A stretch of 64,000 bases of DNA, taken from positions 1 to 64,000 of the forward strand of contig CALWSF010000012.1 of NCBI GenBank assembly GCA_944384125.1. The letters are read 5' to 3'. Under the pieces are notes generated by a model. That model was given only the letters and a program-made list of their open reading frames with translations. It was not told the DNA's origin and did no database searches. This document shows, piece after piece, positions 53,835 through 56,690 of this stretch (positions are counted from its first letter, which is position 1; each line of letters opens with the position of its first letter). Origin of the DNA: an uncultured Lachnospiraceae bacterium. GTDB lineage: Bacteria; Bacillota; Clostridia; Lachnospirales; Lachnospiraceae. The position numbers were made by a program, and so were the translations under genes.

Positions 53835-55181
53835 ATGGGAGAATTGCCACAACAGCTGTTAATACAGGCAGCACTGATTTTATTAAACGCGTTTTTTGCG
53901 TCAGCTGAGATTGCTGTCATATCGCTGAATACGGCAAAATTAAAGAAACTGCAGGAAAATGGAGACAAAACGGCAGGAAAGCTGCTGCGGCTGGCGGAAC
54001 AGCCGTCAGGTTTTCTTTCCACTATACAGATTGGCATAACACTTGCCGGATTTCTGGGAAGTGCTTTTGCGGCGGAAAACTTTTCTGACGGTCTGACCCG
54101 GTGGATCTGTGATGATCTGGGTATAGCGGTTCTGCCGGAACGGATGGTATCGACAGTTTCAGTCATTATTATAACAATTATACTGTCCTATTTTACGCTG
54201 ATTCTGGGAGAACTGGTTCCGAAACGAATTGCCATGCAGAAACCCTATGAAGTGGCCAAAATAGCCTGTGGCGTGGTAACTGCCATTGCGTTTCTGATGC
54301 GCCCGGTAATTGCATTCCTGGCATTTTCCACTAACACAGTTTTGAAATGCCTGCATATGAAGACAGAGGCGGAGGAAGATCAGGTTACGGAAGATGAGAT
54401 ACGTCTGATGATAGACCTGGGAAAAGAAAACGGGGCTATTGATGAGGAAGAAAAGACCTGGCTGCAGAATGTGTTTGAGTTCGGCGACACTACGGTAGAA
54501 GAGGCGATGACAAGGGAGTTTGATGTGGAATCTCTTTCAGTAACAGACAGTGAGGAGGCGGTCCTCCGGAAAATACGGGATACAGGGCTTTCGCGTTTCC
54601 CCGTGTATGATGAGGCAGGAGAAGATATTCTGGGAATTCTCTATGCGAGAGAGTATCTGCTGAATATAAGCGGAGGAAAGAAAAAGCCGCTGAGAGAACT
54701 GCTGCATGTGCCGTATTTTGTTCCGGAGTCTATTCACACTGATCAGCTGTTCCGTGATATGCAGCAGAAAAAAGTACACATGGCGATAGTGGTAGATGAA
54801 TATGGTAATATCAGCGGTATTATCACAATGGAGGATCTTCTGGAAGAAATTGTGGGAAATATCTATGATGAATTTGATCAGGAGGAAGAGCCGGAGGCTG
54901 AAAAGCTTGGAGAAAACAAATGGAGATTTCCGGGAGACACGCCGGTAGAAGAAATCGGAGAGGCATTGGGAGTGCAGCTTCCGGAATCCGATGATTATGA
55001 TACCATAGGAGGACTTATTCTCAATTGTCTGGGCTCTGTTCCCGGAGACGGTACGGTAGTGGATGTCGAGACGGGAGGAATTGCAATACGGGCGGAAAGA
55101 ATAAAAGGGCGCCGGATTGAATCAGTTATTGTGGAAAGACTCAGGCCGGCCGAAGAAAATGAGAAAGAGGCAGTCTCATAA
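53835..55181 (+). CDS. CNNM/CorC-type membrane protein (hemolysin family)
   Basis: The 448-residue protein has an N-terminal CNNM (DUF21) domain with about four membrane helices (to about 165), two CBS domains (about 195-320) and a C-terminal CorC_HlyC domain (about 340-430, with GDTPVEEIGEALGVQLP and YDTIGGLILNCLGSVPGDG). Relatives export or regulate Mg2+ or other divalent ions. ATG at 53835 follows AAGGAG; a longer frame opens at 53769. Confidence 0.93.
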   Translation: MGELPQQLLIQAALILLNAFFASAEIAVISLNTAKLKKLQENGDKTAGKLLRLAEQPSGFLSTIQIGITLAGFLGSAFAAENFSDGLTRWICDDLGIAVLPERMVSTVSVIIITIILSYFTLILGELVPKRIAMQKPYEVAKIACGVVTAIAFLMRPVIAFLAFSTNTVLKCLHMKTEAEEDQVTEDEIRLMIDLGKENGAIDEEEKTWLQNVFEFGDTTVEEAMTREFDVESLSVTDSEEAVLRKIRDTGLSRFPVYDEAGEDILGILYAREYLLNISGGKKKPLRELLHVPYFVPESIHTDQLFRDMQQKKVHMAIVVDEYGNISGIITMEDLLEEIVGNIYDEFDQEEEPEAEKLGENKWRFPGDTPVEEIGEALGVQLPESDDYDTIGGLILNCLGSVPGDGTVVDVETGGIAIRAERIKGRRIESVIVERLRPAEENEKEAVS

Positions 55182-55238
55182 AGCGTTTGTGAAAAGAAAG
55201 GGTTTTGTCTGTTATTTTAATAAAATTAAAAATAATGG

Positions 55239-55267
55239 TTGCAAATTTCAAAAAAACCCAATAAAAT
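55239..55267 (+). promoter_or_regulatory. Promoter of the DUF1576 leader
   Basis: TTGCAA (55239-55244), a 17-bp spacer and TAAAAT (55262-55267). The transcript would start near 55274, giving a leader of about 136 nt. Confidence 0.65.
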
Positions 55268-55308
55268 AATTAAGTAAATATTTTTAGCGTTTTTTTAACA
55301 GAAAAACA

Positions 55309-55408
55309 GGTATGCAAAAGTAACTATTCAGCCTTCTTTTGCTCCGCGGGCCAGCCCCCACGTGGCAAGGCAATAGATTTTGCATACCTTTTTTGAAAGG
55401 TGTGCATG
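55309..55408 (+). promoter_or_regulatory. Structured 5' leader, candidate riboswitch
   Basis: The outer helix P1 pairs GGTATGCAAAA (55309-55319) with TTTTGCATACC (55378-55388). Nested inside are CTATT/AATAG and GCCTT/AAGGC and then GCCA/TGGC. Six T follow P1. The right strand of P1 plus the T-run (55381-55391) can instead pair over 11 positions with 55396-55406, which contains the ribosome site AAAGGTG. The two helices exclude each other, as in a translational switch. No promoter fits between this element and the ATG at 55410, so the gene must be transcribed through it. I do not recognise a known class. Confidence 0.65.
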
Positions 55409-55409
55409 T

Positions 55410-56690
55410 ATGATCAATATGAAATCTCTGTCCAGAGAGAATAAGTTTTTTCTTCTGGCGCTGATTCCAGTTTATTTTATTGTGGTGGGTCTGTGTGTTC
55501 AGCCGCTGGACTCCATTATTCAGGGGCTTTATCATATGATACGGGAACCGGACTTTCTGATTACCGATTATATCGCGGTTGGAGGAATGGGGGCGGCATT
55601 TATAAATGCCGGCGCCATGGCACTGCTCAGTCTGGCTTTTGTTTACTATCTGGACATGGAGATGGATGGACATACAATCACTTCATGTTGTCTGATGTTT
55701 GGATTTTCTCTTTTTGGAAAAAATCTTGTAAATATCTGGGCTATTCTTTTTGGTGTTTTTATCTATGCCAACTACCACAAAACACATCTGTCCCGGTATA
55801 TATATGTGGGAATTTACGGTACCAGCCTGTCGCCCATTATTACCCAGATTATGCATATTGTGGAGATGCCGTTTGCACAGCGCGTATGCCTTTCTTTATT
55901 TGTAGGAATATGCATCGGCTTTGTTCTGCCGCCGCTGTCTACGCATGTTCATTTTTCTCATATGGGTTATTCTCTGTACAATGTGGGATTTTCTGCGGGA
56001 ATTATTGCCACGGTTGTTGTTTCGGCACTTAAGTCTTTTGGAATAGAGACAGAGCAGCGCCTTATATGGTCCAGCGGAAACAATGATCTGCTTCTCGGAC
56101 TTTTATTCGCCCTGTTTGGGGGAATGGCTCTCTCTGCTTTGCTTCTGGGCGGAGAAGATGTGGTCCGATCGTACTGCAGGATTCTGAAAACCTCGGGTAT
56201 AGGCGGAACGGATTATCTGAAAGATGAAGGCGGCCTTGCCGTTGCTCTGAATATGGGCATAAATGGTTTCTTTGCCACTTTTTTTGTTGTTGCGGTAGGA
56301 TCGGAGCTGAACGGCCCCACCATAGGCGGAATTTTTACCATAGTCGGATTTGCCTCAACAGGAAAACATCTGCGAAATATCTGCCCCATTATGATTGGTG
56401 TGTGCCTTGCCAGCCTGACGGGATTCTGGTCGATCAATGATCCGTCAGCGATGCTGGCGCTTCTGTTTTCCACAACGCTGGCGCCTGTGGCCGGAGAATT
56501 CGGAATTTTCTGCGGTATTCTGGCAGGATTTCTTCATACATCTGTGGCGCTGAATATCGGGATTGTGTATGGCGGGATGAATCTTTACAATAACGGATTT
56601 GCCGGTGGTATTGTGGCTATCTTTATGGTTCCGGTTATCCAGTCTATCCGTGATCGGGTCGCAAGAGCAAAGGGCGATCTTTCGCTCTGA
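55410..56690 (+). CDS. DUF1576 family multipass membrane protein
   Basis: The 426-residue protein has about ten to twelve membrane segments and looks like two related halves, each with an N(V/I)G(F/I)..G(I/G) segment (YNVGFSAGII in the first, LYNNGFAGGIV in the second). It is assigned to DUF1576 by its overall pattern; the function is unknown, but transport of a small molecule or ion is plausible. The ATG at 55410 has AAAGGTG 7 nt upstream, within the switching leader. Confidence 0.82.
   Translation: MINMKSLSRENKFFLLALIPVYFIVVGLCVQPLDSIIQGLYHMIREPDFLITDYIAVGGMGAAFINAGAMALLSLAFVYYLDMEMDGHTITSCCLMFGFSLFGKNLVNIWAILFGVFIYANYHKTHLSRYIYVGIYGTSLSPIITQIMHIVEMPFAQRVCLSLFVGICIGFVLPPLSTHVHFSHMGYSLYNVGFSAGIIATVVVSALKSFGIETEQRLIWSSGNNDLLLGLLFALFGGMALSALLLGGEDVVRSYCRILKTSGIGGTDYLKDEGGLAVALNMGINGFFATFFVVAVGSELNGPTIGGIFTIVGFASTGKHLRNICPIMIGVCLASLTGFWSINDPSAMLALLFSTTLAPVAGEFGIFCGILAGFLHTSVALNIGIVYGGMNLYNNGFAGGIVAIFMVPVIQSIRDRVARAKGDLSL

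Follow-up and report, generated by a model that had tools for sequence, protein, structure and literature searches.

The leader of a DUF1576 membrane protein gene in the window, the 64,000-nucleotide stretch of an uncultured Lachnospiraceae bacterium analysed here, is best read as an intrinsic terminator placed close to the promoter, that is, as a transcription attenuator and not as an aptamer (probability about 0.7). The gene (55410..56690, forward strand, as are all features below) encodes 426 amino acids with two DUF1576 copies, and its match to PF07613 covers two stretches at an E value of 5.8e-109, in agreement with the family named in the earlier note on this DNA. As to the function of DUF1576, a search for solved relatives gave nothing better than E 0.22, no NCBIfam model was found, and a literature search on DUF1576 and PF07613 retrieved no paper. 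A CorC-like gene with its stop at 55181 lies upstream. The window begins with two tandem tRNA genes (3-159).

Inspection of the upstream region revealed a sigma-70-type promoter, TTGCAA-17-TAAAAT (55239..55267), whose −35 element TTGCAA (55239-55244), 17-bp spacer, and −10 element TAAAAT (55262-55267) agree with the consensus at 9 of 12 positions. Promoter-like sites numbered 10 over the 2401 bases scanned, compared with 4.3 ± 2.3 in shuffled sequences. Eight genomes of the genus were compared, the window's own (G000) and seven others (G001-G007), and the promoter, in the form TTGCA[AT]-17-TA[AC]AAT, is common to five of them (G000, G001, G005, G006, and G007). No promoter-bearing leader was seen by eye in G002, G003, or G004, and a covariance model of the leader (R1) found no match there either. 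Only 15 nt separate the T tract described below from the ATG at 55410 in the window, so that no further promoter fits there. Both the promoter and the lack of room for a second one had been pointed out in the earlier note, and both observations stand.

Downstream of the promoter, 11 Watson-Crick pairs between 55309..55319 and 55378..55388 form the stem P1, which can be extended by A55308-T55389 and is directly followed by six T residues (55389..55394), the predicted U6 tract of an intrinsic terminator. The stem and tract had been described before, with an aside that together they could terminate transcription. Comparison of the leaders supports this aside: the promoter, P1, and a tract of 6 to 7 T occur together in four of the eight genomes (G000, G001, G006, and G007), with predicted energies of −30.7, −15.5, −18.5, and −17.9 kcal/mol, respectively. 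The distance from the end of the hairpin to the start codon is 22, 22, 25, and 60 nt in the same order. Each of these leaders thus has a stable hairpin directly before a U tract and downstream of the gene's own promoter, the arrangement that defines an intrinsic-terminator attenuator. The segment 55239-55430 folds at −45.3 kcal/mol, compared with −34 ± 3.85 kcal/mol for its shuffles, of which 2 in 200 were as low (z −2.94), and in the window's single sequence both P1 and the alternative helix considered below exceed chance. A simple terminator scan with a loop limit of 8 did not list P1. Among 242 genes with room upstream, at loci chosen for DUF1576 in mixed genera, a terminator-like stem with a T tract starting 12-40 nt before the start codon precedes seven, four of which are DUF1576 genes; with a range of 12-60 nt it precedes 19, eight of them DUF1576 genes.

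The pairing of P1 was examined in the four leaders on a helix shifted outward by one pair (55308-55318 with 55379-55389), in which all 44 cells are paired. Two of the 11 pairs carry two-sided changes, one varies on one side, and eight are invariant. The outermost pair, A-T in the window, reads G-C in G006 and G007, a change weakened by the fact that this pair uses the first T of the window's T tract; the second change is from T-A to G-C in G001. Since 59 of 500 column shuffles reached these values, four sequences are too few to prove covariation of P1. The RNAalifold consensus of the four leaders consists of P1 and nothing else, and a conserved antiterminator helix is absent from it. The earlier note had staked its reading on compensatory changes in P1 and in the helix that competes with it; in these leaders P1 has the two described, one of them outermost, and the alternative helix has none.

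The interior of the hairpin is not conserved. The window is the only place where its 58-nt inner domain (55320..55377) was found: the aligned, shifted P1 encloses 60 nt there, but 14 nt in G001 and 17 nt each in G006 and G007, and a DNA search of the eight genomes returned only the window itself and a stretch of G001 matching 55378-55405. The C/G-rich loop residues once taken for a binding core have no counterpart in G001, G006, G007, or G005, and no aptamer core common to the homologues was found. Neither a match to a known class nor recurrence before related genes was observed. The Rfam search that had been proposed as a check gave no family for the leader, with nothing relevant at the gathering score over the whole window or at E values up to 10 over 55180-55500; the best cmscan score of the leader was 20.2 bits for RF03530 (E 0.22; gathering score 80). 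Model R1 scored its four training members, one per genome, at 96.9-115.4 bits. Across 61 genomes the next match reached 34.6 bits and nothing else exceeded 35 bits; on 52 sources, too, the model gave high scores to the training members only. The G005 leader scores 24 bits. Matches at 25-35 bits were rejected as copies of the leader: judged on their central 200 bases in the given orientation, three of four (L222-L225) resemble ordinary terminators and L225 resembles none. The genomes of L222, L224, and L225 have no DUF1576 match in the family sample. A riboswitch class is expected to retain its core and to recur, and in the searched genomes this leader does neither, so that the riboswitch proposed in the earlier note is not supported. 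Its place is taken by an ordinary attenuator, which is testable.

We propose a transcription start about 7 nt downstream of the −10 element, near 55275, which would give a leader RNA of about 135 nt. Part of this transcription would stop at P1 and U6, where the hairpin is given by sequence and conservation and termination is predicted. Polymerases that read through would enter DUF1576 with P1 intact. P1 would be needed as the terminator stem, and its interior would be free to vary. Initiation at the promoter is probably also under the influence of an OmpR-type response regulator at the tandem TTAACR boxes described below. Passive damping by P1 appears somewhat more likely than regulated read-through.

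The distribution of the leader was examined among relatives of the gene. DUF1576 is carried by all eight genomes of the genus, by 27 of 200 genomes in a family sample, and by 45 of 391 in a class sample, where 41 were over the cut-off; leaders were taken from 37 of the 40 such genomes besides the window's, some with doubtful start codons chosen by script. A contig search yielded 431 loci, and among the best 80, which were kept, the leader of [Clostridium] symbiosum (L045) is like that of G006, and the leader of Clostridium fessum (L044) like that of G001. After removal of leaders with less than 250 nt upstream and of duplicates by the last 150 nt, 102 were kept. By reading, a leader terminator precedes DUF1576 in 7 of 139 leaders (102 + 37), from three lineages; the majority of the DUF1576 genes examined are therefore without one. 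Within the genus, G005 retains the promoter, but its hairpin is unrelated and its T tract interrupted; this and the lack of the leader in G002, G003, and G004 indicate that the leader is not needed in the genus.

Leaders of other sequence were also seen. Two Clostridium species (L079 and L083) have a promoter-like site, a terminator-like hairpin, and a ribosome site before DUF1576, and in another family a distant DUF1576 gene (L177, G533) has a hairpin and T8 directly before its ribosome site, unrelated in sequence. Several Lachnospiraceae (L011, L012, L040, L041, and L042) carry, beside the closer copy, another DUF1576 gene with about 30% identity to that of the window.

Two other accounts of the leader were considered and rejected. 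Leader-peptide attenuation does not fit, as the short frames starting in P1 differ among species and no properly spaced ribosome site was seen by eye. A mobile or repeated element is not indicated: at E 0.001 the eight genus genomes gave no further copy of 55300-55409, and 55275-55409 matched no plasmid or phage.

We also scrutinized the sequence between the −10 element and P1. The best two-half-site match after the −10 element is a degenerate tandem, TTAGCG-N5-TTAACA (55284..55300), a candidate response-regulator box. In all five promoter-bearing leaders, including that of G005, which is without P1, the highest-scoring match to TTAACA-N5-TTAACA is located 12-17 nt downstream of the −10 element, with 10, 10, 11, 11, and 12 of 12 positions matched over the five. 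For G000, G001, G005, G006, and G007, respectively, 16, 2, 0, 0, and 0 of 2000 shuffles reached the score at that offset, and 139, 13, 0, 3, and 0 reached it anywhere in 60 nt. The half-sites stand in tandem near the promoter with an 11-bp period, as OmpR-type targets do, and their occurrence in the five promoter-bearing leaders suggests that such a regulator may also act on the DNA.

The exact form TTAACR-N5-TTAACA has 36 matches in the eight genomes compared with 13 for a reversed control, and DUF1576 leaders account for three of the 36. The loci of 30 matches were read, among which two places occur twice; 27 of these 30 lie outside any ORF longer than 400 nt, and the three flagged include the G005 leader. 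Genes adjacent to the boxes include an OmpR-type response regulator (L155), a DUF5662 gene (L138), a DUF1538 gene, and a glutamate symporter. A gene with a PAP2-like N-terminus lies near the box at L144, L148, L150, L151, L154, and L160, in the window's genome and five others; the PAP2-type assignment comes from Pfam on L148 only, in the window's genome. Judged by sequence, these boxes near membrane-protein and regulator genes, mostly outside long ORFs, make up a candidate OmpR-type regulon. The TTAACR box presumably resembles PhoP or WalR boxes; a literature search on TTAACA, PhoP, and direct repeats found no paper. The phosphate regulon itself was rejected, as the pst promoters read, those of four of five genomes, carry TTTACA-type and not TTAACA sites. 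At the pst promoters L211, L212, L214, and L215, TTAC-like sites were seen by eye about one helical turn away from the TTTACA site, and the combination is possibly a phosphate-regulator box.

The tandem box could be the main point of control of DUF1576, acting on the DNA, with the hairpin as a side feature. This account is compatible with attenuation and is the most serious of the alternatives, though we regard it as tentative. The constant offset of the box, also in the leader without P1, its excess over the reversed control, and its placement mostly outside long ORFs argue for it. The copies in the window and in G001, however, have two mismatches each, 139 of 2000 shuffles reach the window's score somewhere in 60 nt, and the regulator is only putative, the pst promoters having sites of another type. 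If real, a candidate box common to DUF1576 and other membrane-protein genes could hint at when this unstudied family is used.

P1 might instead be the terminator of the upstream gene, with DUF1576 expressed by read-through or by leakage from the promoter. By eye, the stretch from 55181 to P1 shows no other terminator, all transcription from upstream must cross P1, and the upstream neighbour is a CorC-like gene in G000, G005, G006, and G007. We consider this reading improbable, since the conserved promoter sits between the upstream gene and P1, and since G001 retains the leader beside a different gene, for a shikimate kinase. The terminator thus seems to move together with DUF1576, although in G001 a deletion may have removed the CorC-like gene and left its terminator in place.

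A further possibility concerns the 3′ arm of P1 (55378..55388), which is also the left strand of an alternative helix. As the earlier note had it, 55381-55391 can pair with 55396..55406, a stretch made up of the ribosome site AAAGG (55396-55400) and TGTGCA. In the isolated window stretch this helix has −14.3 kcal/mol, and none of 2000 flank shuffles was as low; it is weaker in G001, G006, and G007, where it is equalled by 144, 335, and 313 flank shuffles out of 2000 (G007 with its spacer left out). Its five outer pairs can form in all four P1 leaders (20 of 20 cells), and two positions that differ between species still pair. None of the five has a two-sided change among the four sequences, with wobble changes only, so that the compensatory changes of a translational sequestration switch were not seen; the column shuffle cannot discriminate here (500 of 500 as high), and slid versions pair less well. 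Five of the helix's pairs arise because a CC-U tract adjoins AAAGG, and G005 has the ribosome-site block without a partner strand. The alternative helix is thus possible, best developed in the window, and probably incidental.

A switch without a ligand pocket could nevertheless be built on this shared strand, in which capture of the P1 5′ arm by a small RNA or a protein would shut off translation. The strength of the window's helix and its pairing in all four leaders favour such a switch, but the points just given weigh against it, and opening P1 would also remove the terminator, so that the two effects oppose each other. We hold it to be quite unlikely. Its specific form, in which one strand serves both the terminator and the anti-ribosome-site helix and a trans-acting RNA or protein at the 5′ arm would turn an attenuated, translatable leader into a read-through, untranslatable one, is slightly less likely still; if true, the strand sharing would lock an uncharacterised membrane protein at two levels.

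The same opposition affects the logic by which P1, once formed, had been taken as the ON state. If P1 terminates, opening it would prevent termination yet hide the ribosome site, which makes the proposed logic self-contradictory, and the P1-formed state cannot be both terminated and ON, unless by chance read-through. Both effects agree most simply with an attenuator, fixed or regulated, whose P1 would stay folded in read-through RNA. In full-leader ensembles the mean unpaired probability of the ribosome site is 0.15 in the window, 0.55 in G001, and 0.79 in both G006 and G007; the window's best fold pairs the site with the far 5′ end, so that a formed P1 does not cleanly free the site even in silico. 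A metabolite or ion riboswitch, in which a ligand bound by the inner domain would stabilise P1 and free the ribosome site, is very improbable: the window's leader folds better than its shuffles, its alternative helix is strong, and no more than 3.2 kcal/mol is lost there when the P1 5′ arm is blocked, but opening P1 costs 9.1, 12.8, and 9.8 kcal/mol in G001, G006, and G007, which are without the inner domain, and neither Rfam nor, in 61 genomes, model R1 gave a further strong match.

Several known systems can be set beside the attenuator proposed here. In riboswitches of the Rfam cis-regulatory families with a P1 expression platform, an elaborate interior is joined to a terminator or to an alternative helix over the ribosome site. 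The window's hairpin is similar in having such an interior, an adjoining terminator, and such a helix, but the leader differs in lacking a conserved interior, an Rfam match, and strong further copies in 61 genomes. The bglG/LicT-type antiterminator leaders (RF03530) are the family that gave the best cmscan score, which is nevertheless far below the gathering score. Attenuators formed by promoter-proximal intrinsic terminators in 5′ UTRs are represented by 3′ ends located in 5′ UTRs of E. coli (PMC7815308) and by Rli51 before mpl of Listeria (PMC11394854). The DUF1576 leader differs from these in that no regulator or antiterminator is known to act on it, that its termination is predicted from sequence, and that its sequence was found in four genomes of one genus. 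It shares with them the order of a promoter, a short leader, a hairpin with a U tract, a ribosome site, and the gene.
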